Shown: one piece after another, positions 1 to 42,635 of the stretch
How the letters are laid out: each line of letters opens with the position of its first letter
How positions within the stretch are numbered: position 1 is the stretch's first letter
IMG/VR virus record: IMGVR_UViG_3300035183_000649
Coordinates: 1-44,921 of that record
DNA length: 44,921 nucleotides
Strand: one strand, 5' to 3'
Source: a virus
Position numbers and translations under genes: made by a program
Notes under the pieces: generated by a model
Databases searched by the model: none
Seen by the model: only the letters and a program-made list of their open reading frames with translations
What the model was told of the DNA's origin: nothing

Positions 1-1
1 G

Positions 2-208
2 AACGGCCGCCTCTTCCACCTCTCCTCCTTCCCCACCCCCATCCACTTCTTCGCCACCTACCACCCGGCCCACATCCTCCGTAACAACAACATGATCCGT
101 CCCTTCTCCGACCACCTCTCCCTCCTCAACCGCCACCTCCAGTCCCTCCTCCCCCCCATCACCTCCCCCACGTTCGTCCCCCTCCGGTCCCCCAATGGAG
201 ATCTCTAA
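2..208 (+). CDS. Uracil-DNA glycosylase, C-terminal part (5' end outside window)
   Basis: Only the last 68 codons are present; the frame is open from base 2 to a TAA at 206-208. The visible protein contains FFATYHPAHILRNN, which matches the conserved C-terminal motif of family 4-type uracil-DNA glycosylases (TYHPxxLLRN), where the His contacts the flipped-out uracil. The enzyme removes uracil from DNA in base excision repair. Phages often carry it close to the DNA polymerase, as here. The TAA overlaps the ATG of the next gene (TAATG), so the two are probably translationally coupled. The family call rests on this one motif and on the neighbouring polymerase. Confidence 0.75.
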   Translation, partial: NGRLFHLSSFPTPIHFFATYHPAHILRNNNMIRPFSDHLSLLNRHLQSLLPPITSPTFVPLRSPNGDL

Positions 209-594
209 TGGCAAGCCTGACCGGCTCAAACGTCCTGTCCCGCGTCCAGTCCCGCAAGGCCGAAGACACCCTCCTCAGCCTGTCCGCCTCCCCCGAGTTC
301 CCCATGATGACCCGCATCCAGGTCGCCAACAAACTCTCGTCCCTTCTTCCCTTCACCATCAAGGTCACCAACCTCAACCGCCTCGCCAAAGCCGTCGGCG
401 TCACCCTCCCTTCCAACCGGGGTCCCCGCCCCTCCTTCGACCTCGACCTTCGTCTCCGCCGCATCGAAGACGCCATCACCTTCATCCTCAAGAACTTCGG
501 CGTCCCCGCCTCTCGCGGCACCCTCGACCAGCTCAAGATCATCACGGACAACTGGCTCGTCCACCTCTCTTCCCACAACACCTCCGAAGACTGA
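208..594 (+). CDS. Small phage protein of unknown function
   Basis: 128 aa. The start ATG overlaps the stop of the uracil-DNA glycosylase gene by one base. I do not recognise the family. The protein is mildly basic and mostly helical in appearance, with no cysteines, signal peptide or membrane segment. Codons end mainly in C, like the neighbouring genes, which supports real coding. Its place between a repair enzyme and the polymerase suggests a role in DNA metabolism, but this is inference from position only. Confidence 0.7.
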   Translation: MASLTGSNVLSRVQSRKAEDTLLSLSASPEFPMMTRIQVANKLSSLLPFTIKVTNLNRLAKAVGVTLPSNRGPRPSFDLDLRLRRIEDAITFILKNFGVPASRGTLDQLKIITDNWLVHLSSHNTSED

Positions 595-632
595 CCCCGC
601 CCCCATCCGTCGCCGACGCCGAAAGGGCCCCC

Positions 633-911
633 ATGACTCCCCGCCCCATGATGAAGTGCGGCCACTCCGCCAATGCCACTCGTCCCGGTCCCATCGGCCA
701 AAAGCCCACGACCTCCCCCTGCTGCGCCATCTGCGCCCCCTCCAAGGAGGCCTACGAGATCGACCCCTCGCCGCCCGACCTCCGCACCCGTGAAGCCCGG
801 TGCCCCTCCTGCGACGCCCGCCGCCCCTCTTCCCCCGACCTCGCCTTCTTCGAGCACACCCCCACCAAGCCCTTCGACTCCTTCTACTGCGGCTGCTGCG
901 GCTGGGACTAA
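633..911 (+). CDS. Small protein with two zinc-ribbon-like motifs
   Basis: 92 aa. The ATG at 633 follows an AAAGGG ribosome binding site. The N-terminus has MMKCGHSANA followed by CCAIC, a Cys/His pattern common in small phage zinc-ribbon proteins. A second set, CPSC and later YCGCCGWD, lies in the second half, so two zinc sites are likely. Such proteins usually bind nucleic acid or act as small adaptor factors; the exact job is unknown. It lies 26 bp upstream of the DNA polymerase gene. The reading frame is open upstream to 195, but the codon pattern there belongs to the previous gene, so the later start is preferred. Confidence 0.75.
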   Translation: MTPRPMMKCGHSANATRPGPIGQKPTTSPCCAICAPSKEAYEIDPSPPDLRTREARCPSCDARRPSSPDLAFFEHTPTKPFDSFYCGCCGWD

Positions 912-937
912 CCCCTCCGCCGCTCAGGAGCCTTGCG

Positions 938-3484
938 ATGCCCGACCCCCGCATCCTTTCGCTGGACACGGAGACATACGGCAAGGTTGCGACGCGTCCT
1001 CCCCAGACCGTCTTCTTCCCCCGCAAGATGACGGCCGTCGATCTCATCCCCCCCTCGGAGATCCTGACCACATGCGCCCTCACGTTGCCTTCGAGCGATC
1101 CCCGCGACGATCCTTCCCCTTCTGGCCCTTCCTCCTCTTCCTCTTCCTCTTTTTCATCACGAACGTTACGGCCTACTCCATCGGCCGCCTCCACGAGCGC
1201 GATCTTCAATCTGACCGCGCCCCAGCTCGCCTCTCTTCGTCCGGGTCCAACCCTTCTCTTCCAGTTCGACGGCCTCCCCCTCCGGTCCCGTGAGCGGCAT
1301 GAACTCCTCCTTGCCCGCTGGCTCCAGCACGCCGACGTCCTGATCGGCCAGAACCTCTGCTACGACCTCATGGTTCTCCGGGCCCACTCCCCCGCCTTCC
1401 GCACCATCCTTTCGGGCCGCCACCACCTCATCGACCTCTCCGTCCTCAACTTCCTCCACTCCGAGAACCGTCCCGAGAAGTCCCTCAAAGACCTCGGCCC
1501 CGTCCTCGGCACCCACTGCTACCCCGACGACGAGAAACAGCGCCGCTACAAATCCCCCTCCGATCCCCTCCTCCACTCCTACAACGGCCAGGACACCCAC
1601 AACACCCTCCTCTCCGCCTCCGTCCTCGCCCAGCGCATCCTCTCCGAGTACCCCAACACCGACAAACTCTCCCCCTTCTGCTTCCGCCTCTACTCCGACC
1701 TCATGTGGTCCGTCGTCCGCATGACCGAGTCCGGCGTCCCCTACTCCCTCTCCCTCCTCCACTCCCTCTTCACCCACCTCCACGCCTCCATCTCCGCATC
1801 CCGCTCCTTCTGTTCCTCCCACTCCCTCCTCGTTGACGGCCCCGGTTCACCCGCCTCCCAAACCTCCTTCCTCCGCAACCTCATCCTCCAATGCCCTCCC
1901 GACCTCCCCCTCCAGTTCACCGAGAAGAAGCACGACCTCTCCATCTCCGACCACAACCGAACCGTCATCGCCGCCGCCCTTCCCCCCTCCCATCCCTCCC
2001 AGCCCGTCCTCTCCTCCTGGTCCTCCTTCAAAACCTCCCAGAAACTCCTCTCCACCTACGTTTACCCCCTCATCCTCCATAAGCGGAACAAGCACCTCTC
2101 CCGCTCTTCCGTCCTCCTCTCTTCCTCCGATCCCCCCACCCTTCCCCCACCCCCAAGGGATCTCGTCGCATGGCTGCCCTGGAACCCCCCGTCGTCGAAG
2201 CCGCCTCTCTGCTCCCTCCCGCCCTCTCCGACTGGGCCGTCCCAGTCGTGGACCTCGCCGTCTCCCTCGGCACCACCCCCTCCAACCTCGACCGGGACAT
2301 CCTCATCCTCTCCATCAACGACGTCCTCTCCCGTTCCCCTTTCGCCCGAGTGGCCGCCATCGAGAACGACTACCACTCCCTCATCCTTCCCCGCTCCCTC
2401 TGGCTCCGCCTCACCTACTGCCGCCACCTCTTCGTCAACGAAACTCCTCTCCTCTGACCGCTTCCTGACCCACCCTTCCTGGTTCATCACGCCCTCCCCC
2501 TTCAAAGACTCCTCCGACTCCCAAGGCGGCACGCTCCAGTCCCGCATCACCTGCAAGGACTCTCCCGAACAGACCGCCCCCAAGATCATCCAGCAATGCC
2601 GCCGTTCCAGGTCCCCCTCCGGCACCCTCCTCACGATGGACCTCAAGCAGATCGAACTCTGCGTGCCCGCCCTCCTCTCGGGCGAGCCTTCCATGATGAC
2701 GGCCATCCTCGCCGACGACGACCTCCACACCCTCCGAGCCATCACCACCTTCGGCGCCGACTACCTCACCAGCAAGTACCCCGAACTGGCCGGAGTCCCC
2801 TCCAAAGAATGGAAAGACGCCTGTGAGGCCTTCGCCGAACTTGAACGTCAGGTCGGCAAGAAAATCAACTTCTCCGACTTGTTCCGCGCGGGCGCCGACA
2901 AGATCCGCAACGCCACCTACGAAGACTGCGGCATCTGGGTCCCCCTCTCCGTCTTCGAGAAGGCCGTCCGCAACCGACCCATCGACCGCCCCGTCCTCTA
3001 CGAGTGGCAGGAGCGCCTCATCCGCGACGCCCGCGCCGACGGCTACCTCTCCCTCCCCTTGACGGGCCAATCCCGCTCCTTCCTTGGGGGCACCAAGTTC
3101 GACGTCAACGAAATCGTCAACTTCCCTGTCCAGGCCACCGCCGCCAACGTCCTCCTCCGCATCCAGCACTACTGCTCCACCCGTCTCCCCTCCCTCGCCC
3201 TCTCCACCTCCCTCCACCACACCCACCTCTGCTGCAACACCTACGACGCCCTCGTCTTTGATTGCACCACCCCCCTCGCCCTCTCCGAGGCCTACTCCCT
3301 CATCCCCGAAGCCCTCGCCTGGGTCCAGACCCACGACTACTGGGCCGCCCTCCAATCCCTCTTCTCCCGCACCCTCCCCCTCTCTTATTCCCTCAAGGAG
3401 TCCGCCCGACGGCCGCCGACCTTCGTCTCCGAACCCAGATCCACCCCCCCATCCCCATCACAAGGATCAAATAATGCCTCCTAA
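938..3484 (+). CDS. polA: Family A DNA polymerase with 3'-5' exonuclease domain (interrupted by an out-of-frame segment)
   Basis: 848 aa; the ATG at 938 follows CAGGAG. Replicative phage polymerase. The exonuclease domain starts with LSLDTETYG (D10, E12) and continues with GQNLCYDL (D143). The polymerase domain shows motif A DLKQIELC (D568), motif B RQVGKKINF (K641, F645) and motif C NTYDALVFD (D770). Both metal-binding Asp residues are kept, but the usual HDE of motif C is YDA and the Tyr of motif B is Phe. Residues about 400-506 (roughly 2140-2455) are low-complexity Ser/Pro/Thr, because conserved coding there runs in another frame (see the entry at 2170). Flanks LLSTYVYPLI and THPSWFITPS match consecutive parts of the family, so the segment is an insertion. 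The 3' end overlaps the next gene by 11 bp. Confidence 0.9.
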   Translation: MPDPRILSLDTETYGKVATRPPQTVFFPRKMTAVDLIPPSEILTTCALTLPSSDPRDDPSPSGPSSSSSSSFSSRTLRPTPSAASTSAIFNLTAPQLASLRPGPTLLFQFDGLPLRSRERHELLLARWLQHADVLIGQNLCYDLMVLRAHSPAFRTILSGRHHLIDLSVLNFLHSENRPEKSLKDLGPVLGTHCYPDDEKQRRYKSPSDPLLHSYNGQDTHNTLLSASVLAQRILSEYPNTDKLSPFCFRLYSDLMWSVVRMTESGVPYSLSLLHSLFTHLHASISASRSFCSSHSLLVDGPGSPASQTSFLRNLILQCPPDLPLQFTEKKHDLSISDHNRTVIAAALPPSHPSQPVLSSWSSFKTSQKLLSTYVYPLILHKRNKHLSRSSVLLSSSDPPTLPPPPRDLVAWLPWNPPSSKPPLCSLPPSPTGPSQSWTSPSPSAPPPPTSTGTSSSSPSTTSSPVPLSPEWPPSRTTTTPSSFPAPSGSASPTAATSSSTKLLSSDRFLTHPSWFITPSPFKDSSDSQGGTLQSRITCKDSPEQTAPKIIQQCRRSRSPSGTLLTMDLKQIELCVPALLSGEPSMMTAILADDDLHTLRAITTFGADYLTSKYPELAGVPSKEWKDACEAFAELERQVGKKINFSDLFRAGADKIRNATYEDCGIWVPLSVFEKAVRNRPIDRPVLYEWQERLIRDARADGYLSLPLTGQSRSFLGGTKFDVNEIVNFPVQATAANVLLRIQHYCSTRLPSLALSTSLHHTHLCCNTYDALVFDCTTPLALSEAYSLIPEALAWVQTHDYWAALQSLFSRTLPLSYSLKESARRPPTFVSEPRSTPPSPSQGSNNAS
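2170..2457 (+). CDS. 95-codon ORF nested out of frame inside the polymerase gene
   Basis: It lies at -1 relative to the polymerase frame. It has its own AAGGGA ribosome binding site (2155-2160), ATG and TGA. Codons in this frame end mainly in C, the signature of real genes on this strand, while the polymerase frame across the same bases does not. The protein is globular-looking, with LAVSLGTTPSNLDRDIL and LPRSLWLRLTYCRHLF, and I do not recognise it. The end reads CTC CTC TGA C; a +1 slip there would rejoin the polymerase at DRFLTHPSWF, and CTC TGA C resembles the prfB frameshift site (CUU UGA C). Alternatives are a free-standing nested gene, an insertion read through two frameshifts, or two compensating indels (real or assembly errors; a C-rich tract lies at the entry). 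Confidence 0.6.
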   Translation: MAALEPPVVEAASLLPPALSDWAVPVVDLAVSLGTTPSNLDRDILILSINDVLSRSPFARVAAIENDYHSLILPRSLWLRLTYCRHLFVNETPLL

Positions 3485-3899
3485 GAAGAAACAAAAGAAA
3501 GCCTCCTCCAATAAGAAGAACCCCGCCGCCAAGTTCTTCTACGTCATCCGCGCCTGCAAGGAGGACGGCACCTCCCACGTCAACTTCAAGTGGCCCTCCA
3601 AAGGCCCCGTCAGCGCCCCCCGCTTCGTGCTCAACGGACGTTGCGGCGACGGACTCCACGGCTGGGCCTCCCTCGAACACATCGGAAGAGGAGCCCCCTA
3701 CTGGTTCGAAGACCGCAATATCGCAACCTACCACTGGCTCCTTGTCAGGGTCCCTTTCCGCTACCGGGGCCGAATCAACTACCAGAAGCTCGACCCCCAC
3801 AAAGTGAAGTTCAAGCACGGCTACGTCGTCCAGACCGACAACTTCTTCCCTACCATCCGGAAGTTTGCCCTCTTGACAAAGGGCAAAGACCTGCCCTAG
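3474..3899 (+). CDS. Small basic protein of unknown function
   Basis: 141 aa. The ATG at 3474 overlaps the end of the polymerase gene by 11 bp and follows AAGGA at 3462. The first 20 residues are very rich in lysine, which suggests nucleic-acid contact or a flexible tail. The rest looks like a compact alpha/beta domain rich in aromatic residues (for example FFYVIRA, LHGWASLEHI, TYHWLLVRVPF). I do not recognise a family. Coupling to the polymerase gene suggests a role in replication, but this is inference. Confidence 0.7.
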   Translation: MPPKKKQKKASSNKKNPAAKFFYVIRACKEDGTSHVNFKWPSKGPVSAPRFVLNGRCGDGLHGWASLEHIGRGAPYWFEDRNIATYHWLLVRVPFRYRGRINYQKLDPHKVKFKHGYVVQTDNFFPTIRKFALLTKGKDLP

Positions 3900-3902
3900 C
3901 CT
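3873..3902 (+). promoter_or_regulatory. Possible sigma70-type promoter
   Basis: TTGACA (3873-3878), an 18-base spacer and TAGCCT (3897-3902). The -35 is a perfect consensus; the -10 is weak. It overlaps the stop codon of the preceding gene and lies just before the helix-turn-helix gene, whose ATG is at 3908, so a transcript would start inside that gene and could serve the tRNAs and nuclease downstream. Predicted by eye only. Confidence 0.3.
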
Positions 3903-3907
3903 CCTCC

Positions 3908-4231
3908 ATGAGCAAGACCACCCACATCGACCGCCTCCGGGCCCTCGGCATCAAGAACCCCATCAGGCGATACCTTCTTTCCGGCAGGTCGGTGAGGGAC
4001 ACCGCGAAGGCTTTGGGCATCTCGACCGTTCGCGTCTACGAATACGCGAACGCGCACGACCTCCCCACCAACAAACCCATCCGGCCGGGCTCCACCTACG
4101 AGAAGCAGGTGCACGCGCTCCTCCACCAGAAGGAGTTCCCCCTCCGGCTCGTGGCCCGACTCCTCAGAACCTCCTACCCCCACCTCCTCGCCCTCAAACG
4201 CAAGACCTCCAAGTCACGCCCTTCCATCTGA
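3908..4231 (+). CDS. Helix-turn-helix DNA-binding protein
   Basis: 107 aa. Residues about 27-52 (SVRDTAKALGISTVRVYEYA) fit a helix-turn-helix: a first helix, a Gly turn and a recognition helix. A second, weaker helical pair follows near the C-terminus (LRLVARLLRTSYPHLLALKR). The protein is basic, as expected for DNA binding. It may be a transcription regulator or a small terminase-like protein, but the packaging genes are far away on the other strand, so a regulator is more likely. The ATG is 8 bp after the preceding stop, with only a weak ribosome binding site. Confidence 0.7.
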   Translation: MSKTTHIDRLRALGIKNPIRRYLLSGRSVRDTAKALGISTVRVYEYANAHDLPTNKPIRPGSTYEKQVHALLHQKEFPLRLVARLLRTSYPHLLALKRKTSKSRPSI

Positions 4232-4312
4232 GGGACGTGACCCATCTCGCTCCGAGTGGTGGTTCCGGCTTCCCCTTCGAAAGAGGGCTCCTAAAAGTGA
4301 AGTGACGCATCG

Positions 4313-4329
4313 CCCTCCGACCCGGAGGG
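4313..4329 (+). other. Hairpin in the gap before the tRNA genes
   Basis: CCCTCCG (4313-4319) can pair perfectly with CGGAGGG (4323-4329) around a 3-base loop. No T-run follows, so it is not a classic terminator. The right arm forms part of a minus-orientation copy of the dispersed CCCCCTCCGG motif. It lies in the 140-bp gap (4232-4371) between the HTH gene and tRNA-Arg, where no gene was found. Confidence 0.4.
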
Positions 4330-4371
4330 GGACATCGGAGCAGGGTTGACCGCCGCGAAAGTGCGGCACTT

Positions 4372-4446
4372 GACGGCGTAGCTCAGCCCGGACAGAGCAG
4401 GCCGGTCCTAACGGCAAGGTCGCAGGTTCGAATCCTGCCGTCGTCT
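4372..4446 (+). tRNA. tRNA-Arg (anticodon CCT)
   Basis: 75 nt. The acceptor stem GACGGCG pairs with CGTCGTC (one G-U). The D-arm is GCTC/GAGC, the anticodon stem has one mismatch at its outer pair with loop GTCCTAA, and the T-arm is GCAGG TTCGAAT CCTGC. The anticodon at loop positions 34-36 is CCT, which reads AGG. No CCA is encoded. AGG is rare in most genes of this window but frequent in the helicase gene at 43434-44855, which gives a plausible reason for carrying this tRNA. Confidence 0.85.
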
Positions 4447-4447
4447 T

Positions 4448-4519
4448 TCCCTGGTGGCTCAACGGTAGAGCGGCCCCCTTTGGAGGGGCGGGTTGCGGGT
4501 TCGAATCCCTCCCAGGGTG
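4448..4519 (+). tRNA. tRNA-Gln (anticodon TTG)
   Basis: 72 nt, one base after tRNA-Arg, so the two are probably processed from one transcript. The D-arm is GCTC/GAGC, the anticodon stem is a perfect 5 bp (GCCCC/GGGGC) with loop CTTTGGA, and the T-loop is TTCGAAT with one T-stem mismatch. The anticodon is TTG, reading CAA. The first acceptor pair is T-T, and the discriminator is G; a weak first pair and G73 are known features of tRNA-Gln. No CCA is encoded. Confidence 0.8.
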
Positions 4520-4520
4520 T

Positions 4521-5174
4521 TTGCAGCGGTCCCACCTCATCCTCATCGACGACCGGGAGAAAACACCCCTCCTGTTCCCCCCCTTCCTCACCGTCGCGGG
4601 GGGCTCCGTGCCCTGGTCCCCCTCCGGTCGGACCCTCCTGATCCACACCCTTTCGCGCCGCCTGCCCACCGGCGACTACGTCCTCTCCGAGGCGCCCGAT
4701 CGGGGCTGCGTCGAACGGAAGGCCCACCTCTCCGAGTTGCACGGCAACCTCTTCACCGAGAAGCGATACCTCCTGTTCGCCGACGAGCTGAAACGTCTCC
4801 GGGACCACTTCTCCCACCCCCTCCTCCTGATCGAAGGGTCCCCCACCAAACCCCTTCCCGTCCGGCCGGGGCTCCCCCCTCCGGACCTGATCCTGGACGT
4901 CCTCATGGGTCTGCTGACCCGCTATACTGTCCCCGTCCTCTTCCTCGACGCCTCTACCGTGGACGCTCGTAGGAACGTGGCACGGATCGTGGCGCGACAT
5001 CTCCTGCACGCCGCGTATGGAGACACCCCATGTTCGTCGAGTTTGTCGCCCCCAAAGTCACCCCCACCGACATCAACACCTCCTCCGGCATCGCTTCTCG
5101 CGGCGGCGTCCCCCTCATCGCCGCCCTCCCCGCCCTCGACGGCGTTGACTACATCACCTTCCTCTGGCACCTGA
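4521..5174 (+). CDS. ERCC4-type (XPF-like) nuclease
   Basis: 217 aa from a TTG start that begins one base after the tRNA-Gln gene. The ERCC4 nuclease signature is clear: ILIDDREKTP (D10, D11, E13), then GDYVL (51-53) and VERKAHLSEL (E65, R66, K67), followed by LLLIEGSP. These residues bind the metal in XPF/Mus81-type nucleases, which cut branched or flap DNA, so a role in replication fork or recombination processing is likely. The last 48 residues are Ser/Pro-rich and overlap the next gene by 145 bp in another frame; they look like run-on sequence. The start is uncertain because of the tRNA directly upstream. Confidence 0.85.
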   Translation: MQRSHLILIDDREKTPLLFPPFLTVAGGSVPWSPSGRTLLIHTLSRRLPTGDYVLSEAPDRGCVERKAHLSELHGNLFTEKRYLLFADELKRLRDHFSHPLLLIEGSPTKPLPVRPGLPPPDLILDVLMGLLTRYTVPVLFLDASTVDARRNVARIVARHLLHAAYGDTPCSSSLSPPKSPPPTSTPPPASLLAAASPSSPPSPPSTALTTSPSSGT

Positions 5175-5377
5175 CCCAGACCGGCGGAACGACCAAGTTC
5201 ACCCTCCAGTGCGCCCTCTCCATCGACGGCCCTTGGATCGACATGCACACCGTCACCTCCCTCAACGCTTCCGACTCGGGCTTCAAGCAACTGCCCAAGG
5301 CCCCCCTCTGGCGTCTCTTCTTCGACACCACCTCCATCGGCACCGCCCTCGTCCTCACCGCCGGTGTCGTCGGCTGA
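5030..5377 (+). CDS. Small beta-rich protein of unknown function
   Basis: 115 aa. The ATG follows GGAG and lies inside the end of the nuclease gene. The sequence alternates short hydrophobic and polar stretches (YITFLWHLTQTGGTTKFTLQ, WRLFFDTTSIGTALVLTAG), which fits a small beta-sandwich. It resembles small phage accessory virion proteins in style, but no family is recognised. The next two genes encode exported proteins, though this one has no signal peptide. Codons end strongly in C, which supports real coding. Confidence 0.65.
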   Translation: MFVEFVAPKVTPTDINTSSGIASRGGVPLIAALPALDGVDYITFLWHLTQTGGTTKFTLQCALSIDGPWIDMHTVTSLNASDSGFKQLPKAPLWRLFFDTTSIGTALVLTAGVVG

Positions 5378-5408
5378 TTCCCCCTCCGGTCCCCTTGGAG
5401 TCCACCCC

Positions 5409-6053
5409 ATGAAACGCATCTGCTTCGGCCTCGCCCTGCTCGCGCTTAGCGGCGTTCTTCTCGCCCTTGCCCAGCCCGTCCCTACCTCCACCGGCCAGTT
5501 CCGCACGGCCCCCATCACCGGCACCGGTTCCTCCGACTACGCCATCACCATCGGCAACCGCTACTCCCAATCGACCGTTTCCGGGTGGTCCCGCACCGTC
5601 ATCGAACTCACCAACGGCGACCCCTCCAACCGCCTCGTCCGCGTCGATCTCTCCTTCTGCGCCAACTCCGCCGCCGCCACCGTCCCCTTCCGCATCTGGC
5701 TCGGCAAGAAGGGCCTCGGGGCCACCCCCGACTTCGAGTACCAGCTCCTCGGCACCGGCTCCTTCACCACCCGTGCTTCCGGCGCGGGCGTCGCCGCCTC
5801 CTCCATCATCACCTCCTCCGAGTACGTCGCCGACACCGTCTCCTTCGTCCCCGCCACCGCCGCCACTTCCCCCATCGGCATCTACGACCTCCTCAACGCC
5901 TCCTACGGCACCACCTATACCGTCTTCTCCCCCGGCTCCCTCGTGCCCGCCCACCTCCTCATCAGCGACCTTGGCAACTACCGCTTCCTCATCTTCGACG
6001 CCGATCCCGGCAACGGCGTCAACCCCTCCGCCATCATCGACCCTGGCACCTGA
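5409..6053 (+). CDS. Exported beta-rich protein with signal peptide
   Basis: 214 aa; the ATG at 5409 follows GGAG. The N-terminus MKR, a hydrophobic core (FGLALLALSGVLLALA) and a cleavage-like AQ form a typical Sec signal peptide. The mature part is rich in Ser, Thr and Gly and looks like beta-strands. It contains SAAATVPFRIWLGKKG, which resembles SAVTFSLWLGATG in the small protein encoded at 27746-28117 in the tail gene cluster, so the two may share a fold. Exported proteins are unusual in phage genomes. A role at the host surface or in the periplasm is possible, but unproven. Confidence 0.7.
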   Translation: MKRICFGLALLALSGVLLALAQPVPTSTGQFRTAPITGTGSSDYAITIGNRYSQSTVSGWSRTVIELTNGDPSNRLVRVDLSFCANSAAATVPFRIWLGKKGLGATPDFEYQLLGTGSFTTRASGAGVAASSIITSSEYVADTVSFVPATAATSPIGIYDLLNASYGTTYTVFSPGSLVPAHLLISDLGNYRFLIFDADPGNGVNPSAIIDPGT

Positions 6054-6087
6054 TCCCCCCCTCCGACTCCCCCTCCGGAACACTCCC

Positions 6088-8142
6088 ATGGACCGCCGCC
6101 TCCTCGCCCAGCTCCCCGCCTTCCTCCTATGCCTCCCCGCGTGGGCCACCACCTGGTACGTCCATTCCGGCAACTCCGCCGGAGGCCGTGACGGCACCGC
6201 CGCCAACCCCTACAACTCCATCCTCGAATGGCATACGGCCGTCAACGGCGGCAACTTCTCGACTTCCGGCATCATCGGCACCGACAACGTCCTGGTCTTG
6301 GCCTCCTCCGAAGGCTCCTACTTCCGCGAGGGCGCCCAAACCTTCAACTTCGGTTCGGACTCGACCAAAGCCATCACCATCCGCGCATGGGACGAGTCGA
6401 TCGACGGCCCGGCCAAGAACGGCACCCTTCGCGTCCAGCGACCCGTCCTCCGCAACGACATCCTCTTCACCTCCCTGACCAACGTCTCGGGCACCCTCTA
6501 CAAATCCAACGCCCTCCCCTCCAACGTCCGCACCCTTGCGGGCGGCGGCACCATCCGCGTCCTCTACAAATACGACGACCCCACGACCTGGACCAAGGAA
6601 GGGTTCCACGCCGCCGTCCTCACCGTCACCGAACAGGCGAGCGATCCCGCCTCCGTCCCCGCCGGAACCGCCATCTACCAGACCACCACGCGCCAACTCT
6701 GGGTTGACGTCGGCGTGACCGCCGTCGCTGCCGACTTCTCCTACTGCGTCACTTACACCGACGACGGCGTCACCGGCAAGACCAACGCCGGTCTCTGCCT
6801 CCAAAACGCCTACAACTGTACCATCCAAGGAATCGACTTCTACAACTACATCGAGGGGTCCTCCGGGTGGTACTCCGCCTCCTTCGACTCCCTCTCCGTC
6901 AACAACACCATCCGTGGCTGCCGCTCCTTCGACTCCAGCCACCACGGGTTCGGCATCACCGCCTCCACCGCCGTCGTCCAGACCAACAACCTCATCGAGA
7001 GTTGTGAAGTCTCCGGACTCGGGAAGAACTCCGGCGCCGCCGCCTTCTACATAGGCACCACCGGCGTCCAGACCGGCAACCGCATCCTCAACTGCACCGC
7101 CCACCTCTACCCCACCCTCAAGAAAGACAAGACGCCCGTCTTCACCACCTCCGGCTGCAACGCCGCGTGGATCGGCTCCTCCACGAGCGGCGTCCGCACC
7201 GACGTCCTCATCGACTCCTGCCGCTTCAACTTCTACCCCTCCTACCTCCCCCTGAGCGGCACCTACCCCTCCGGCCCAATCCTCACCTTCGTCGCCAACG
7301 CCCCCTCCTCCGTCGAAGACTGGGCCACCTACCCCGTCCGCGTCGTCAACTGCGAGTTCGTCAACATGACGGCCGCGACCATGGACAACAACTCGGCCCC
7401 CACCCTCATCCGACAAGGCGTCGCCTACTACAACTGCGTCCTCGACTTCTCCGGTTTCTCCAACCTCACCTCCCCCACCCCCTCCTCGGGCGTCTTCACC
7501 CTCTACCTTCGCCCAAGCAGCATCCAAAACTACCTCGGCATCTTCTCCTCCATCGTCTCCGCCAACCTCTCCAACATCGGCTCCTCCTACCCCAACATCT
7601 TCTCCAACATCAACGGCGGTTCCTCCCCCACCGTCTGGAACGTCACCGTCAACGACTCCCTCGTCTCGTGGACCGGAGGCTCCATGAACTCGGGCGTCGC
7701 GTACTGCGGCATGTACGAGATGCGGTCCGGTACCTCCGGCAACACCGGCATGAAAATCATCTCCCGCCGCTCCTGCTACTCGAACGCGTGGGCCAACCAC
7801 CGCGAGGCCTCCGCCGGCTCCTGGGGCAACCGAGAACTCCTCGTCGGGGACACCGGCGGCGCGACCCCCAACATCGACTACACCTTCCAGTCCTGCCTCT
7901 ACTACAACTTCCTCGACGGCAACTACTCCGGCGGCACGACCTACGATGACTGGTCCGAGTGGTCCGTCCTCGTTGACCCCACAGGCGTCAAGCTCACCAT
8001 GACCCCCGTAATCGGCCTCCCCTTCCGCGCCATCCCCAACTCGGGCCTCCCCTCCACCGTCAAGGCCGCCCTCTCCCGTATCCCCTCCACCCCCGGAATC
8101 CAGGCCCCCCTCCCCCTCCGGTTGCGAGGCCGCACCCGCTGA
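6088..8142 (+). CDS. Exported right-handed beta-helix protein
   Basis: 684 aa. It starts with a signal peptide (MDRRLLAQLPAFLLCLPAWA), followed by TTWYVHSGNSAGG and GTAANPYNSI, the usual opening of secreted parallel beta-helix (pectate-lyase fold) proteins. Repeated short strands with Asn-rich turns (NNTIRGC, NLIESCEV, NRILNCTAH, VRVVNCEF) run through the middle. This fold is used in tailspikes and polysaccharide-degrading enzymes, so a polysaccharide target is likely. The signal peptide argues against a simple tailspike, because virion parts are normally assembled in the cytoplasm. No catalytic residues could be assigned. An open frame upstream to 5467 is rejected: it lies over another gene and lacks coding bias. 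Confidence 0.8.
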   Translation: MDRRLLAQLPAFLLCLPAWATTWYVHSGNSAGGRDGTAANPYNSILEWHTAVNGGNFSTSGIIGTDNVLVLASSEGSYFREGAQTFNFGSDSTKAITIRAWDESIDGPAKNGTLRVQRPVLRNDILFTSLTNVSGTLYKSNALPSNVRTLAGGGTIRVLYKYDDPTTWTKEGFHAAVLTVTEQASDPASVPAGTAIYQTTTRQLWVDVGVTAVAADFSYCVTYTDDGVTGKTNAGLCLQNAYNCTIQGIDFYNYIEGSSGWYSASFDSLSVNNTIRGCRSFDSSHHGFGITASTAVVQTNNLIESCEVSGLGKNSGAAAFYIGTTGVQTGNRILNCTAHLYPTLKKDKTPVFTTSGCNAAWIGSSTSGVRTDVLIDSCRFNFYPSYLPLSGTYPSGPILTFVANAPSSVEDWATYPVRVVNCEFVNMTAATMDNNSAPTLIRQGVAYYNCVLDFSGFSNLTSPTPSSGVFTLYLRPSSIQNYLGIFSSIVSANLSNIGSSYPNIFSNINGGSSPTVWNVTVNDSLVSWTGGSMNSGVAYCGMYEMRSGTSGNTGMKIISRRSCYSNAWANHREASAGSWGNRELLVGDTGGATPNIDYTFQSCLYYNFLDGNYSGGTTYDDWSEWSVLVDPTGVKLTMTPVIGLPFRAIPNSGLPSTVKAALSRIPSTPGIQAPLPLRLRGRTR

Positions 8143-8172
8143 ACTACCCTACCCGATCCCAGGAGCTTCTAG

Positions 8173-8421
8173 ATGCCTCTCGACCAAGACGACCGCCAGT
8201 GGCTAGAGGAACGGTTCGACGCCATACACCAACGCGTCGATACAGCCTTCCACGGACCGGAGGGGGAGCCGCACAAAGGCATCTGGGTTCGCCTTGACCG
8301 CGCCGAACGCATCATCGCCGTCGCCCTCTGGATCGCCACCGCCGCCGTCACCGCCGGTATCGGCGCCCTCGCCAAAGCCTTCACCACTGGAAGCACGCCC
8401 CCCTCAAACCCTCACCCATGA
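8173..8421 (+). CDS. Small membrane protein, holin-like (XhlA type)
   Basis: 82 aa; the ATG follows AGGAG. The N-terminal half is charged and helical (DRQWLEERFDAIHQRVDTAF), then GIWVRLDRAERI leads into one membrane segment at about residues 46-70. This layout, a soluble helix followed by one C-terminal membrane span, matches small phage lysis proteins of the XhlA type. It overlaps the next gene by ATGA. Together with that gene and the lipoprotein after it, it forms a lysis cassette; no endolysin is visible nearby. Confidence 0.7.
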   Translation: MPLDQDDRQWLEERFDAIHQRVDTAFHGPEGEPHKGIWVRLDRAERIIAVALWIATAAVTAGIGALAKAFTTGSTPPSNPHP

Positions 8422-8684
8422 TCCCCCTCCGGTCCATCTTGCTCGACCCCGAGACGACCAGCGCCTTCCGCCGTCTCCTCACCGTCTCCGCCTCCTCCTT
8501 CGGGGGATGGGCCATCGCCAAAGGGTGGATCTCCCCCGAACTCGCGGCCGCCCTAGGCACCTTCGGCTTCACTCTCCTTCAGGTCTGGTCCCGGATCGAC
8601 CGAAACCGCGCCTCGTCCCGGGCCGTCCAAGGCGCGTGGGACGCCAAAGCCCCCAAGGAAGACCCTCCGGAGGACTCCCAATGA
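8418..8684 (+). CDS. Putative holin
   Basis: 88 aa, coupled to the previous gene by ATGA. Two hydrophobic segments (about 20-37 and 42-58: LLTVSASSFGGWAIAKGW and LAAALGTFGFTLLQVWS) are split by a short turn, followed by a charged C-terminal tail. This matches two-span phage holins with a GWxxAKGWI turn. Holins make holes in the inner membrane to time host lysis. The family match is by topology and motif only. Confidence 0.7.
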   Translation: MIPLRSILLDPETTSAFRRLLTVSASSFGGWAIAKGWISPELAAALGTFGFTLLQVWSRIDRNRASSRAVQGAWDAKAPKEDPPEDSQ

Positions 8685-8753
8685 TCCGTTCCTCCTCGCC
8701 CCCCTCCTGGCCTGGTCCAAGTACGACGACAACGTGATCCGAAAGGAGTCCCC

Positions 8754-9023
8754 ATGAAACGCCCACTCCTCCCCGTCGCCTTCGTTGCGGGTTGCCTCCT
8801 CGCCTCCTGCACCACCTACCCCGCCACTCCGGAGGGGGACGCCCGCCGCGCCGCCGATGCCTCCACCATCCAGAAAGCGGGCGACTCCCTCGTCGCCGCT
8901 TCCACCTTCCTCCCGCCCCCCTTCAACCTGATCGCGGCCGCCCTCGTCGGCATCGGCACCACCATCGCCGTCCAGAAGGTGGGTGGCAAGAAGTCCGACC
9001 CCACCAAGACCACCACCACCTGA
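8754..9023 (+). CDS. Small lipoprotein, possible spanin component
   Basis: 89 aa; the ATG follows AAGGAG. The signal sequence ends in the lipobox LASC with Cys19, so the protein is predicted to be lipid-anchored. A second hydrophobic stretch (FNLIAAALVGIGTTIAVQ) lies near the C-terminus. Its place directly after holin-type genes suggests an outer-membrane spanin or another lysis helper. A normal Rz1-type spanin is Pro-rich and lacks a second hydrophobic stretch, so this assignment is uncertain. A strong terminator follows it. Confidence 0.65.
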   Translation: MKRPLLPVAFVAGCLLASCTTYPATPEGDARRAADASTIQKAGDSLVAASTFLPPPFNLIAAALVGIGTTIAVQKVGGKKSDPTKTTTT

Positions 9024-9044
9024 ACCTCCCCCATGTTGTTTGTC

Positions 9045-9083
9045 GAGCACGCCCCGCTATCGCGGGGGGCGTGCTCTTTCTCA
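9045..9083 (+). terminator. Rho-independent terminator after the lysis cassette
   Basis: GAGCACGCC with CCGC pairs with GCGG and GGCGTGCTC around a TATC loop (9045-9076, with a two-G bulge), followed by TTTCTCATTT. The stem is long and GC-rich. It separates the lysis cassette from the recombination genes. Confidence 0.85.
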
Positions 9084-9102
9084 TTTCCGATTGGAGTTCT
9101 GG

Positions 9103-10341
9103 ATGCCCCTCCCCCCCACCGAGCCCATTCCCCCTCCGGTCGATGAGTCGGACAGCGCCCGTGTCTACCTCGAAGGGCACGGGCTTGTCGCTCTTCAACC
9201 CCCCATCCGTTCCTCCGACTACTCCCTCTGCCTCTCCGATCCCTTCCGCTACTACCTCACCCGCCGCCTCGGCCTCTCCCCCTTCCTCTCCTACTCCACC
9301 GCCCTCAACCGGGGCACCTGGTTCCACACGGCCGCCCAAGCCTCCCAAACCTCCGACCCTTCCTCCTTCCTCATGAACGCCTTGGACGCCCGCCTCACCG
9401 AACTCAAAGCCGTCTGCGAGTCCGTCGGCGTCCTCCCCTCCGCCGCCCTCTCCTTCGCCCAGCGCGAACGCCGCGACTTCGAAACCTCCTCCGCGTGGTT
9501 CGATGCCGCCCGCTCCGTTCCCTTCCACCAAGGCAAATCCTTGGACACCTTCTTCGCCCCCTTCACCACCATCTCCTCCGAACTCACCCTCCGCCACCCC
9601 CTCACCATCAACGGCGTCACCATGCAGGCCGTGTGCACCGTGGACCGCTTCCTCCTCCGCGACAACCACCTCTACATCCTCGACTACAAGACCTGTTCCG
9701 AGCCCCCCACGATCCGCCTCGCCAAGTGCCCCCTCGAAATGCAGACGTGGCTCTACTCCCTCATCACCAGCGAGATGCTCGAAGCGGGCACCCTCCAGCG
9801 CCACCTCGACCTGCCCCCCTCCGTCACCTTCGGCGGCATGTACCACGTCGCCATCCAAAAACCCACCATCAAAATGGGCCTCAACGACCGGCCCTACCGC
9901 GACGTCCCCTTCACCCCCTCCTCCGGCAAGAACAAGGGCATCACCCGCATCGAGCGTGAATACTACGGGGAGCCCTCCTTCGCCAACTACGTCGCCCGCT
10001 GCACCTCCTGGTACACCCGCTCCGGCGAGTTCTCCGCCTCTCCCTTCGAAGAACCCCCCATCAACATCTCCTTCATTTCTCCCTCCCTCCTCAAGAGCCC
10101 CTTGACAATGAAAGCCCTCCACACTAGACTTCTCCTCATCCACTCCTTCGCCACCCGACCCGCCAACCCCGACAACTTCCCCATGAATCCCGACGGGATC
10201 TACAACTTCCGGGGCCAAACCCTCTCACCCTTCGCGCCCCTCTACCAACGGCCCGTCATCGAGTGGCCCTCCCTCATCGCCGAAGCACGGTTCGTGGTCG
10301 ATCATCGTGACGACCCAGCCGACACCCCACCCTCGGAGTAG
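9103..10341 (+). CDS. PD-(D/E)XK nuclease, RecB/Cas4-like exonuclease
   Basis: 412 aa; the ATG at 9103 follows TTGGAG. The nuclease core reads ISSELTL (E160), then CTVDRFLLRDNHLYILDYKT with D181, D194 and K196, the standard pattern of RecB-family nucleases, and then EMQTWLYSLI as the following helix (QxxxY type). Phage members of this family resect double-stranded ends for recombination. The ATPase and SSB-like genes that follow form the partner set. The end of the gene carries a possible internal promoter (10102-10130). The first 15 residues are Pro-rich. Confidence 0.8.
   Translation: MPLPPTEPIPPPVDESDSARVYLEGHGLVALQPPIRSSDYSLCLSDPFRYYLTRRLGLSPFLSYSTALNRGTWFHTAAQASQTSDPSSFLMNALDARLTELKAVCESVGVLPSAALSFAQRERRDFETSSAWFDAARSVPFHQGKSLDTFFAPFTTISSELTLRHPLTINGVTMQAVCTVDRFLLRDNHLYILDYKTCSEPPTIRLAKCPLEMQTWLYSLITSEMLEAGTLQRHLDLPPSVTFGGMYHVAIQKPTIKMGLNDRPYRDVPFTPSSGKNKGITRIEREYYGEPSFANYVARCTSWYTRSGEFSASPFEEPPINISFISPSLLKSPLTMKALHTRLLLIHSFATRPANPDNFPMNPDGIYNFRGQTLSPFAPLYQRPVIEWPSLIAEARFVVDHRDDPADTPPSE
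10102..10130 (+). promoter_or_regulatory. Possible sigma70-type promoter
   Basis: TTGACA (10102-10107), a 17-base spacer and TAGACT (10125-10130). This is the best promoter match found in the window: perfect -35 and optimal spacing. It lies inside the 3' end of the nuclease gene, about 215 bp before the next start, and could express the Lys-rich protein, ATPase and SSB-like genes separately. Predicted by eye only. Confidence 0.45.
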
Positions 10342-10346
10342 CCTCC

Positions 10347-10904
10347 ATGGCCAAGAAGAAGTCCACCAAGAAGAAGAAGTCCCCGCGCAAGGCGCCCGTC
10401 CGTCGCGCCTCCTGGTCCGACGTCTTCTCCCCCTCCATCATCGACCAGGTCCTCGCCCCCGCCCTCATCCAAGACGTCCACGACGGTGAAGCCTTCGCCA
10501 ACGCCCCCTCCCTCGCCCGACTCCACGCCCTCTTCGAGGACGACCACGCCTGCTCGATCCCCCGTGACCTCTTCAACCGGGTCGCCGAAGCCGCTGGCAT
10601 CTCCTTCTCCCGCTCCATCTCCCTCGGCCGCAACGTCAACCTCCCCACCCAGCGACAGACCGCCGACGACTCCTTCGGAAGCCCTGGCGACCAGATCCGC
10701 CGCACGGTCATCCCCACTCCTTCCCCCTCCGGTCCGCAGGAGGCCGTCGCGGGAGACCCCGACGACGAGACCGACGGGTTCCGGATCACCAACGACACGC
10801 CCCCCAGCGCTCGGGACGAGGTGATGCGGCAGGCCCAGATCGACGCCGCCCTCGCCGAGGCCAACGGCGAGATCCCCGAACCCGTCATTATCCCTCGCCG
10901 CTGA
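10347..10904 (+). CDS. Basic-tailed protein of unknown function in the recombination cluster
   Basis: 185 aa; the ATG follows GGAG, six bases after the nuclease stop. The first 20 residues are almost all Lys, Arg, Ser and Pro. A folded part follows (WSDVFSPSIIDQVLAPALIQ and DLFNRVAEAAGISFSRSI), then a polar, acidic C-terminal tail. I do not recognise it. The basic tail suggests DNA contact, and its place between a nuclease and a RecA-like ATPase suggests a recombination or replication accessory role. Confidence 0.65.
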   Translation: MAKKKSTKKKKSPRKAPVRRASWSDVFSPSIIDQVLAPALIQDVHDGEAFANAPSLARLHALFEDDHACSIPRDLFNRVAEAAGISFSRSISLGRNVNLPTQRQTADDSFGSPGDQIRRTVIPTPSPSGPQEAVAGDPDDETDGFRITNDTPPSARDEVMRQAQIDAALAEANGEIPEPVIIPRR

Positions 10905-10931
10905 GTCCCCCTCCGGTTCTAGGAGCGTCCC

Positions 10932-11930
10932 GTGACCCAAGTCCATCAGACCATCGTGGCCGCACCAACCGCCTCCACCCGGTGGGGCTCCCTCGGCGGC
11001 TTCTCCCAACGCATGATCGCCTCACCGGAGGGGGTGCTCGGCCTCATCGCGGGCGCTCCGGGTTCCGGCAAGTCCGCCCTCTTCCAGACCTGTCCCGAAG
11101 CCTTCATCTTCAACCTGGACCCCTCTTCCACCACCATCCCGGGCGAGCCCGGAGCCGAAGCCCCCACCCCCAAAGCCCTCATGTGGCCGGGCATCTCCAC
11201 CGAGGGTCGCACCCTCAACGACCAGGGCCTCCCCTTCATCCTTAGCTGGTCCTTCGTCGAAGAGAAGGTGGCCATCCTCAAGGGCCTCGCCGCCCGCAAC
11301 GAGCCCCGCCCCAAGGTCGTCGTCTTCGACTCCCTTTCGGCCATGATCGCCCTCATCAAGTCGTGGCTGCCGGGCAAGGCCGCCGACTTCAACCTCGCCA
11401 CCAACAGCAAGACCGTCTGGAAGGAACTGGACGGACGGGCCGCGTGGGACTTCCTCTACGACCGCATCATCGACCTCCTCCTCTCCCTCCGAGCCCACGG
11501 CTACGGCGTCTACGTCGTGGGCCACATCGTCAACTCCAAGGTCCAGCTAGGCGAGGACCGCATGACCATCATGCCGGAACTCACGATCACCGACGGCTTC
11601 TGGAAGCGGCTCTACCCCTGGTTCGAACTCGTCATGATCGCCCAGGCCTTCGACGAGGTCGTCTCCATCCCCGATCCCCGCTGGAAGCCCGACCCCAAGT
11701 TCCCCAACGCGAAGGCCCGGACCGTCTCCGTCCAACGGCGCCGTGTCTACCTCACCACCGGGGGCAACGAGTTTTCCGGCATCACCAAGGTCCGCGTCCC
11801 CATCTCGACCGTCCTCCTCGAACCCGCCTCCTCCGCCTGGGACGTCTTCGTCGCCCAGTACAAGGCGGCGGCGGACCGGGGCACCCTCGAAGCCAAAGAG
11901 GTCGCCCCTCCTCCTCCTGCGAAGCCCTGA
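10932..11930 (+). CDS. RecA-like ATPase, Sak4-type recombinase
   Basis: 332 aa from a GTG start after AGGAG. Walker A is GAPGSGKS (41-48) near the N-terminus, and Walker B is VVVFDS (129-134). This single RecA-like core with the P-loop so close to the start matches the Sak4 group of phage ATPases, which load onto single-stranded DNA and assist annealing or strand exchange. The neighbours, a PD-(D/E)XK nuclease upstream and an SSB-like protein downstream, complete a typical phage recombination set. The C-terminal tail is Pro-rich. Confidence 0.8.
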   Translation: MTQVHQTIVAAPTASTRWGSLGGFSQRMIASPEGVLGLIAGAPGSGKSALFQTCPEAFIFNLDPSSTTIPGEPGAEAPTPKALMWPGISTEGRTLNDQGLPFILSWSFVEEKVAILKGLAARNEPRPKVVVFDSLSAMIALIKSWLPGKAADFNLATNSKTVWKELDGRAAWDFLYDRIIDLLLSLRAHGYGVYVVGHIVNSKVQLGEDRMTIMPELTITDGFWKRLYPWFELVMIAQAFDEVVSIPDPRWKPDPKFPNAKARTVSVQRRRVYLTTGGNEFSGITKVRVPISTVLLEPASSAWDVFVAQYKAAADRGTLEAKEVAPPPPAKP

Positions 11931-11987
11931 TTCCGGAGCCGCCGTGGCTCCCCATCTTTCCGGGGCTCCGTGCCCCAAGGAGTTTTC

Positions 11988-12572
11988 ATGTCCCTGGATA
12001 CCGCAACCGCCTCCGCCCTCTCCCTCCTCACCGGGTTCAACAACGCCTACAACGACGCCACCGCCAACAACGGCGAGGGCGGCCTGGGCGAGTGGCCCCC
12101 GCACGGCAAGTACGCCTGCGCCATCACCTCCATCGCCGTCAAGGCCGAGACCAAGAAGATCAAGTCCAGGAGGAACGGCGTCGAGTATGCCTTCCCGGGC
12201 GTCTCCGTCCAGTTCCACTTCCGCTGCAACGACGTGATCCCCACCCAGAAGGACCCGTCCCAGCCCCTGGAGTGGAAGGGCGCTCCCTTCTTCCTCGTGG
12301 CCAACCCTGCCTCCGTCCCCGAGGACCTCTCTTGGCTCATCTCCATGAACGCCGACCGACTCAAGGGCCACCTCGCCTGCGTCAACGGCGCCCTCGGCAA
12401 CAACATCCAGGCCGACCTCCAGGCCGCCATCACCAAAGTCTCCAGCCAGCAGGTGCACGCCATGGTCTTCTGCGAGTACCGTGACGGCAAGCAGTCCGTC
12501 CAGGACAAGGCCGAGGGCAAGGCGGCCGTCCAGTACAAGACCGAGTTCCTGACGGAGGCCCTCGCCTCCTAA
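11988..12572 (+). CDS. SSB-like protein (DUF669-like)
   Basis: 194 aa. The ATG at 11988 follows AAGGAG; a GTG at 11970 is possible but lies before this ribosome binding site. The sequence has GEWPPHGKYACAITSIAVKA, then a basic KKIKSRRNGVEYAFPG stretch and strand-like segments, which fits an OB-fold single-strand binding protein of the DUF669 kind often encoded beside Sak4-type ATPases. The call depends partly on this neighbourhood. It would protect single-stranded DNA during replication and recombination. Confidence 0.6.
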   Translation: MSLDTATASALSLLTGFNNAYNDATANNGEGGLGEWPPHGKYACAITSIAVKAETKKIKSRRNGVEYAFPGVSVQFHFRCNDVIPTQKDPSQPLEWKGAPFFLVANPASVPEDLSWLISMNADRLKGHLACVNGALGNNIQADLQAAITKVSSQQVHAMVFCEYRDGKQSVQDKAEGKAAVQYKTEFLTEALAS

Positions 12573-12616
12573 GCCAGCCATGGCAGTCTGTCCTCCCCTC
12601 TCGTTGAGTGGAGTTC

Positions 12617-12655
12617 CACCCCCCATCTCCGGAGCAAGGGACGGGGGGTGTTCGC
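12617..12655 (+). terminator. Possible terminator after the SSB-like gene
   Basis: CACCCCCC (12617-12624) can pair with GGGGGGTG (12643-12650), leaving an 18-base loop. The following TTCG is a poor T-tail, so termination would be weak. It lies in the 220-bp gap between the SSB-like gene and the next ORF. Confidence 0.4.
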
Positions 12656-12659
12656 ACGG

Positions 12660-12688
12660 TTGACTTCCCCCTCCAGTCCTTGTAGCCT
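12660..12688 (+). promoter_or_regulatory. Possible sigma70-type promoter
   Basis: TTGACT (12660-12665), a 17-base spacer and TAGCCT (12683-12688). The same -10 hexamer occurs in the candidate at 3873-3902. It lies in an intergenic gap just after a hairpin, a sensible place for a promoter driving the last two genes of the left arm. Confidence 0.35.
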
Positions 12689-12759
12689 CCTCCAGACTCC
12701 CCCTCCGGTTGCTGGGGCGGCTCCGCAAGAGTCGCCTCAGCCTTCTCTCTCCCCTCTCT

Positions 12760-12792
12760 GGTGGCCGCTCACTTCACGGGGCGGCCACCTTT
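12760..12792 (+). other. Perfect 9-bp hairpin ending three bases before a start codon
   Basis: GGTGGCCGC (12760-12768) pairs perfectly with GCGGCCACC (12781-12789), followed by TTT and then the ATG at 12793. It may be a terminator with a short T-tail, or a structure that blocks ribosome access to that ATG; no ribosome binding site is visible between the hairpin and the ATG. Confidence 0.55.
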
Positions 12793-13272
12793 ATGACCGA
12801 CGCCAAGTGCCAGGTGCTCTTGGCCGGGGACCCCTCATCCCCCTCCCTCTACGCTCCCGGCCGCGCGTTCCTTCTCCGCTCCACCATGATCGCCACGGAC
12901 CTCCCCCTGACCGGCTTCCACGCCCGGAAGGCCCGCCTCTTCGTGGGCACCAAGAACACCCTCACCCATCTCATCACCCTCGCCCACCCCTTCGACCCCA
13001 CTCCCCCCTCCGGCAACCCCTACCCTCATTTGGGGGTGGGGGAAGAAGAGATTGATCTGCTTGAAATCGACGTTGTCGCCCTCGCCTTGACGTTCAAGAA
13101 GAAGGGCTCCTTTCGCATGTCAACCAGGGTGCCCTTGCGAACGACAGCCATCTTTGAGGAAAGGGTCCCATGGATTTTCCCCCTGTTGATACCTCGTCGT
13201 CTTCCGGCCTCTCTGCGCACGATGTCAAAGGGCAGCTTCTCCTGCCTTTCGCAATGGACCAGGCTGAGCTGA
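12793..13272 (+). CDS. Protein of unknown function
   Basis: 159 aa from the ATG at 12793. Codons end mostly in C from here to about 13000, which supports coding. The sequence has a beta-rich appearance (CQVLLAG, RAFLLRSTMIATDLPLTG, KARLFVGTKNTLTHLITL). I do not recognise it. The start is uncertain: there is no clear ribosome binding site, a hairpin sits directly upstream, and an ATG at 12886 is an alternative. The last 34 residues overlap the MazG-like gene by 103 bp in another frame and look like run-on sequence. Confidence 0.5.
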   Translation: MTDAKCQVLLAGDPSSPSLYAPGRAFLLRSTMIATDLPLTGFHARKARLFVGTKNTLTHLITLAHPFDPTPPSGNPYPHLGVGEEEIDLLEIDVVALALTFKKKGSFRMSTRVPLRTTAIFEERVPWIFPLLIPRRLPASLRTMSKGSFSCLSQWTRLS

Positions 13273-28615: not shown

Positions 28616-30339
28616 AGATTCACCTGCGTTGTAACACCCGCGCCGCCCGCGCCGCCGGCGGTAACCGTCCCCGCTGTCCCGGTGGTGCCGGGGGTCGCGC
28701 CTGTCGTGACGGAGTTAGCCGCCGAGGTCGGCGGGGCGTTGAGGCAGTAGAGGTAGACACGACCACCCGCCCCGCCGCTGCCGCCACGGCCTCCGGTGCC
28801 CGTGCCGAATCCGTTACCGCCAGTGCCGCCCGTGCCTCCACTCACGTCGATCGCATTGGCCGCAACAGAGCCCAGAAGTTCGGAGTAGAGGATGTAGATC
28901 CACCCTCCAGAACCGCCGCCACCGCCACCGCCACCACCCGCGAACCCGGCCGCCGCGTTACCGCCGTTGCCGCCGTTGCCCCCCTTCGAAGAGATGGCCC
29001 CCGCCGCCGTGCCGCCACCCCGCAGGATCCTGCGGGCGAAGATGGCGAGACAGCGGCCAGATTCCCCTCCGCCGCCTCCGCCGCCGCCTGAGTTCGTGCC
29101 GTCTCCACCGCCAGCAGAGCCTCCCGTCCCTCCACACATCCCGCTGAGGAGCGTGGCGCCCTTGAGGAACGCTTTGGTGGGCATCCGGAAGTTGGGACCG
29201 GCGGTGTTCGAGTTCGTCGAAGCCTTGGAAGCCCCTCCGGCATTGACCGTGCCGCCGGTTCCAGAAGACCCGCCAGATCCGCCGGCACCGCCAAGATTGG
29301 GCGACTCACCCGCAGAGGCTGCGGCCGCCGTCGCGGTGGCTCCAACACCAGTTCCACCCCCCGCACCAGCCGATCCAGCGTGACCGCCACCAATCATCAC
29401 ACCCGCAGAAGACGACGACGTAGAGCCAGCGGTCGAACCGCTTGCATTACCGCCCGCATTGCCGGGGCCCGTGATCGCCGCAGCACCCGCCGCAGAAATA
29501 TCAAGAACGTTCCGCACCTGGAGGAAGTAGCCAGCGGGAGTGATGCGACCGCTCCCGCTGATCGTGAGATTGTCGAAGTTGGACAGCCGCGTCAAGGAGC
29601 CGGAGTTGATCGGGCCCGTCGTGGCGTTCGTGGTCGTAATCGTCACGTCACCGTCGGAGCCGTCGCCAAACCAGAAGTTGATCTCGTCCTCCGTGAGGAC
29701 TTGCGTGGAGGGCATCGGGATGAACATGCAACCCTCGCCGTCCTCGCCGGGCATCCCCGGGACCATCAAGCTCTCGCCGCCAGAACCGGGGGCCCCGTCC
29801 GCACCGGCGGGACCCTGTGGGCCTTGCGGACCTTCCGGGCCTTGCGGACCTTCCGGGCCTTGCGGGCCTTCCGGGCCGGGGGGGCCCGGCATCCCGTCCT
29901 CGCCATCCTCACCTCGGAAGCCAGGAGGGATGTCCCCCCGGAAGACGACGTCACCCCCCCGTCCAAAGAAGACGGAGGCGCCGTCGATGCCCGTAAGAGT
30001 GATGTCGTTGGCCCACGAGAGGGTCTTACCACCGGAGGGGCTCACCGAACCATCGACACCGTCGGGCACCGTGAGGCCCGAGTTCTGGAGGGTGTAGCCC
30101 CCACTGCCGTCGTAACGAGGCACCGCGTTGTCGGTGGAGGTAGCGGGCGCGACGGCTCCACCGGGACGGAAGGGGAGCGGCGTATCCCATGGGTCCCCAT
30201 CGGTGGTGGGGAGGTAGGCCCAGCCCGTCGTGAGGTCCAGGATCCACTCGCCCGCGAACGACGTAATCGACAGCGAGTTGAGGTCGGAGGTGGTGTACCT
30301 CCGCATCAACAGTCGAGCGTACTCGGTGGTCAAGGGCAA
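28612..30339 (-). CDS. Tail fibre with collagen-like repeats and polyglycine-rich tip
   Basis: 575 aa from a TTG start behind AGGAG. The N-terminus contains [15 protein letters not shown], a typical phage fibre sequence. Residues about 140-190 are collagen-like G-X-Y repeats ([20 protein letters not shown]), likely a trimeric stalk. The last 280 residues are extremely Gly-rich with runs of GGNGG and GGGGGG, as in the polyglycine-II adhesin tips of some phage fibres, which bind receptors. The collagen-like part has no Lys. GT25-like genes lie on both sides of this gene. The role in host recognition is well supported in general, but the receptor is unknown. Confidence 0.8.
29818..29883 (-). repeat. 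18-bp tandem repeat encoding the collagen-like stalk
   Basis: CCTTGCGGACCTTCCGGG on the + strand is repeated about three times with small changes, encoding GPEGPQ units. Such repeats can change in copy number by slippage and so alter stalk length. Confidence 0.7.
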
Positions 30340-36437: not shown

Positions 36438-36440
36438 GAG

Positions 36441-42618: not shown

Positions 42619-42635
42619 CTTACCTGAGAAAGGGG

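Follow-up and report, generated by a model that had tools for sequence, protein, structure and literature searches.

Two putative nested genes in loop insertions of a phage family A DNA polymerase gene

Embedded phage genes and the polymerase locus

Genes embedded in other genes are already known from phages. In lambda, the spanin gene Rz1 lies within Rz (PMC6139136), and in phiX174 gene E, which encodes a small membrane protein, is nested in gene D (PMC8227390). A DNA polymerase gene in an IMG/VR virus record (44921 bases, taken whole and called the window below) resembles both: as with Rz1, the candidates are small phage genes wholly within another gene in a shifted frame, a type often missed by gene callers (PMC6139136), and as with E in D, the overlap is internal and in another frame, with E as a membrane protein resembling the predicted product of the shorter, 73-codon candidate (PMC8227390). 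In contrast to Rz, the host gene encodes a DNA polymerase and not a functional partner, the nested segments appear as lineage-specific loop inserts, a role in lysis is a guess here, and the frame is -1, whereas a +1 register has been reported for o-spanins (PMC6139136). Expression has been demonstrated for phiX174, a small ssDNA phage (PMC8227390), whereas the present record is of the tailed-phage kind, 45 kb in length, and known from its sequence. The literature searched, limited in scope, contained no case of a dsDNA phage polymerase that hosts a nested gene. We regard the polymerase case as real and unusual, with two nested genes as its most likely, though far from certain, explanation.

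No near match to phage records was evident over the first 25 kb of the window. The gene at 938-3484 belongs to family A, as its translation carries a Pol A domain (Pfam DNA_pol_A, 5e-9, above the cut-off; phrog_17, DNA polymerase, 1.3e-27) together with the sequences DTETYG, DLKQIEL and YDAL for the exonuclease motifs and the carboxylates of motifs A and C, and its identity to the polymerases of Stenotrophomonas, Vibrio and Curtobacterium phages is 25-28%. An alignment of five polymerase sequences was too divergent to serve as a search query. Motif B (2860-2930) is itself divergent (NFSDLFRAG), reading RQVGKKINFSDLFRAG versus NFGLIYG in relatives, and motif C (about 3240-3260) reads YDAL versus HDA in relatives. 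The features of the locus are as follows.

938-3484, + strand: family A DNA polymerase gene, 848 aa, with 3'-5' exonuclease motifs; houses both nested segments
1057-1060, + strand: GGAG, SD-like sequence 11 nt 5' of the second nested ATG
1072-1293, + strand: second nested ORF, 73 codons plus stop (1291-1293), -1 frame, ATG at 1072
2131-2169, + strand: C-rich stretch 5' of the nested ATG; either a leader that is not translated or, had the segment originally been in frame, -1-frame coding sequence
2155-2160, + strand: AAGGGA, SD-like sequence 9 nt 5' of the nested ATG
2170-2457, + strand: nested ORF, 95 codons plus TGA (2455-2457), -1 frame, its codons offset by one base in the 5' direction from those of the polymerase, ATG at 2170
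2441-2480, + strand: polymerase coding signal resumes (KLLSSDRFLTHPSW); HMM switch at 2441, alignment to DLP5 and VHS1 continuous with the insert omitted

The original prediction, a model's reading of these letters, had described the longer ORF with its AAGGGA, ATG, 95 codons and TGA at -1 inside the polymerase gene, and the polymerase frame as open across it in Ser/Pro/Thr-rich sequence; all of these elements are present, and the polymerase frame is open throughout 938-3484. A separate downstream polymerase half was considered and rejected: the polymerase frame at 2441-2636 contains no ATG, GTG or TTG, and a start at 2636 would lose conserved sequence.

Codon signal and insertion in two internal patches

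The original prediction had proposed a codon test of whether the 95-codon segment is coding, and the test came out in favor of the -1 frame. With one neighbouring gene and the polymerase flanks as training set, synonymous-codon scores over 2171-2455 are -89.4 bits for the polymerase frame, +31.7 for the -1 frame (example peptide, DILILSINDVLSR) and -80.3 for the +1 frame. The frame HMM assigns 2131-2440 to the -1 frame, and solutions no more than 5 bits below the best one place the entry at 2117-2149, slightly 5' of the ATG at 2170, and the exit at 2435-2454, directly preceding the TGA. Within the segment the polymerase frame has a C3 of 0.368, versus 0.799 +/- 0.033 expected, and a nested gene predicts 0.36. 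The strong C-ending bias on which the prediction also drew is present in the -1 ORF (C3 0.768) but is not independent evidence, as resampled polymerase codons give about 0.755; used in this way the argument is circular, and we set it aside. The -1 bias is weak evidence because the second positions of Ser, Pro, Thr and Ala codons are mostly C. What carries information is the loss of codon bias in the polymerase frame itself, at a place where the -1 frame matches the codon usage of the genome. In synonymous resamplings of the 95-codon ORF the polymerase frame remains open in 62% of cases, and the open polymerase frame is therefore unremarkable and needs no special cause.

Across the whole gene there are exactly two internal patches where the codon signal passes to the -1 frame. 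Among the 31 ORFs compared, the polymerase has 123 windows in which another frame is ahead by more than 10 bits, and windows of this kind occur in other ORFs too, most of which either overlap a neighbouring gene or have a questionable start. The second patch, at about 1087-1201, is of the same kind and had been missed by the original prediction. The frame HMM places the -1 frame at 1087-1201, the synonymous score over 1073-1204 is +5.7 for the -1 frame versus -32.3 for the polymerase frame, and the polymerase C3 in this patch is 0.37 versus 0.87 expected. Here the signal ends well short of the stop of the 73-codon ORF (exit range 1199-1256, stop at 1291).

Both nested ATGs are preceded by SD-like sites comparable in strength to those of other gene starts. 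For AAGGGA the anti-SD duplex is -5.1 kcal/mol, equalled or bettered by 27% of the ATGs in 1-13000 and similar to that of the gene start at 3474; the 95-codon ORF thus combines a -1-frame coding signal with an SD-like site of ordinary strength, an ATG and a TGA. For GGAG the duplex is -6.6 kcal/mol, and 13% of ATGs are equal or better. In the 849 codons of the polymerase gene the -1 frame has only five ATGs, and each of the two patches has one of them at its start. For a random point, the probability that an ATG occurs in the preceding 5 codons is 0.035, that one occurs in the following 13 codons is 0.08, and that a stop occurs in the following 5 codons is 0.06; the 95-codon patch has its stop directly after it. 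These coincidences had been noticed before the chances were computed and were discounted accordingly.

Comparison with relatives indicates that the 95-codon segment is an insertion in the polymerase, its flanking stretches being joined directly in related proteins. As the original prediction had held, the flanks are neighbours in the family: in the polymerases of DLP5 and VHS1, about 15 residues separate the STYV-like stretch from HP[ST]Y, and when the insert was omitted in a script the VHS1 score rose from 60.5 to 73.2 bits in a single continuous 551-residue alignment. We propose that this insert is located at the thumb-palm junction. The second patch appears to sit at a point where the polymerase is longer than that of DLP5 by about 50 residues, between two predicted strands (a beta-hairpin) of the exonuclease domain. 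Mobile-element explanations for the inserts found no support. For an inserted intein or homing endonuclease, the 95-aa protein shows no Hint or HNH/LAGLIDADG signature in Pfam, NCBIfam and PHROG; a group I or II intron was rejected on Rfam, which shows only tRNAs above threshold in 900-4600; and the CT-rich flanking repeats are uninformative as a target duplication, with CTCCTCT occurring 7x in 1-4500.

Probable nested genes and competing explanations

Among the three readings offered by the original prediction, that of an inserted, nested gene is the best supported, because the codon signal has an ATG with an SD-like site close to its start and a stop at its end, and because the second patch has an SD-like site and ATG of its own. 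We therefore consider it probable, though well short of assured, that two putative small genes with internal initiation are nested in the polymerase gene. Two loop insertions would each carry a small -1-frame gene. Ribosomes starting at 938 would translate through both inserts, yielding Ser/Pro/Thr-rich polymerase loops, while other ribosomes would initiate on the same mRNA at the ATG at 2170, preceded by AAGGGA, and produce a 95-aa protein ending at the TGA at 2455; initiation at the ATG at 1072, preceded by GGAG, would likewise produce a 73-aa protein. We infer the internal initiation, the existence of both proteins and the tolerance of the polymerase for its loops. The fuller proposition, that the two genes with their own starts occupy surface loops whose Ser/Pro-rich sequence is a by-product of the nested coding, we judge to be evenly balanced between true and false.

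If nested genes are indeed present, whole out-of-frame genes can be accommodated in tolerant loops of essential replication genes in larger dsDNA phages, and such loops are a place that gene callers overlook; the sign to look for would be weakened codon bias in the host frame, not a second frame that is open.

A different history, unlikely in our estimation and still the foremost alternative, would have each loop carry an extra segment that was once in frame and became shifted through a one-base loss before it and a one-base gain after it. The loops would then be dispensable, so that the shift was tolerated, and the shifts recent, since the old codon bias is intact, an account to which we attach the same low degree of belief. 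Codon likelihoods fail to separate the two histories, as treating the C-rich stretch at 2131-2169 as noncoding leader (169.2 bits) or as part of a fused frame (169.7 bits) gives indistinguishable fits, and an indel could plausibly have arisen in the C-rich run at 2132-2154. Compensating indels are a real rival because of a second locus in the same genome. The terminase large subunit gene (38714-41308, - strand) contains an intein-like insert at about aa 605-784, in the nuclease region (GLEHDD/C...HN/CIDT), and the Ser/Thr/Pro-rich linker of this intein (39032-39250) encodes, in the -1 frame, an HNH_3 motif whose Pfam match (1.3e-5) exceeds the gathering score. A stop lies just upstream of this motif in the same -1 frame, and the intein ends remain in frame. 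As in the polymerase, out-of-frame coding lies within an in-frame Ser/Thr/Pro-rich insert. The terminase segment, however, has a recognisable HNH motif, a stop in the frame of that motif and no start codon and looks decayed, whereas the 95-codon ORF of the polymerase is intact and gene-shaped, with both a start and a stop.

It is this shape that favours nested genes. Indels do not account for the ATG and SD-like site close to the start of each signal, or for the stop at the end of the 95-codon signal (the chances of 0.035-0.08 given above); they also require two independent pairs of recent events in a single gene. The exit region lacks a long homopolymer, and a membrane-like hydrophobic run would be odd as an in-frame loop of an exonuclease domain. 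Should indels nevertheless be the right explanation, dispensable inserts would have been silenced while the frame of the host protein was preserved.

A sequencing or assembly error, in which the true genome is single-framed and the record carries paired false indels, is improbable. It is brought into consideration by the nature of the record, a virus sequence from IMG/VR judged from its letters alone, and by the C-runs near the entry site, but it needs four errors in one gene forming two exactly compensating pairs, long ORFs elsewhere in the record are intact (1236, 938 and 864 codons), and the coincidences of start and stop go unexplained.

The prfB +1 frameshift site carries the string CTN TGA C, and the original prediction had likened the exit site to it. 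The string is there, as CTC TGA C, but the resemblance goes no further: no SD-like stimulator lies upstream of the exit, the Leu tRNA in the P site would need to re-pair, poorly, with UCU, and a second shift in the opposite direction is needed. Programmed frameshifts, -1 in the C-tract and +1 at CTC TGA C, giving either a polymerase with the 95-aa segment or a shortened protein that stops at the TGA at 2455, are thus the least credible of the readings, since beyond the prfB-like exit and the C-runs near the entry the C-tract, read in the polymerase frame, lacks a canonical X XXY YYZ heptamer (T CCC CCC, A CCC CCA) and local folding beside the switch sites is unremarkable (z -0.5 to +1.0; -2.3 over 2000-2500).

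The candidate proteins and other features of the window

The 95-aa protein has no match in Pfam, NCBIfam or PHROG, and none in Pfam when its upstream extension is added. A homolog, which the original prediction had named beside the codon test as a sign of a real gene, did not emerge: none was detected for either small protein among viral contigs, genome contigs and phage DNA, tblastn included, nor for the 95-aa protein by tblastn against plasmids. Two matches for the 73-aa protein were rejected as chance similarities to its Pro-rich tail. The same viral, genome and phage sequences contained no close relatives of the phage or its polymerase, and neither nested ORF has a paralog in the window. 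A single phmmer match of the 95-aa protein in the PDB, to a CBS-domain protein (E 0.0095; best single stretch E about 1; no Pfam support for a CBS domain), is a weak lead. Its AF2 single-sequence model had a mean pLDDT of 48 and was not taken into a fold search. We would guess at a soluble accessory protein.

The predicted 73-aa product has a basic N-terminus followed by a hydrophobic segment at about residues 15-38 (KD19 maximum 1.94) and is probably a single-span membrane protein. The hydrophobic run coincides in part with a CTCTTC repeat, and the codon signal extends past the repeat. A role at the host membrane, for example in lysis or exclusion, is a guess.

Elsewhere in the window, a tail-fibre-like gene on the - strand has a short +1-frame patch at 29817-29907 (59 nt by HMM, 16 bits), which could reflect composition only. 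Downstream of the polymerase gene, two adjacent tRNA genes, Arg(CCT) and Gln(TTG), occupy 4372-4520 and are followed by an ERCC4-type nuclease-like ORF at 4521-5174, whose open frame runs past a better-scoring gene start at 5030. Genes are on the + strand on the left and on the - strand from about 13.7 kb onward, and the GC skew of the + strand is strong, reaching -0.48 in 1-12000 and +0.40 in 36000-44921, with coding strands that are C-rich and G-poor.
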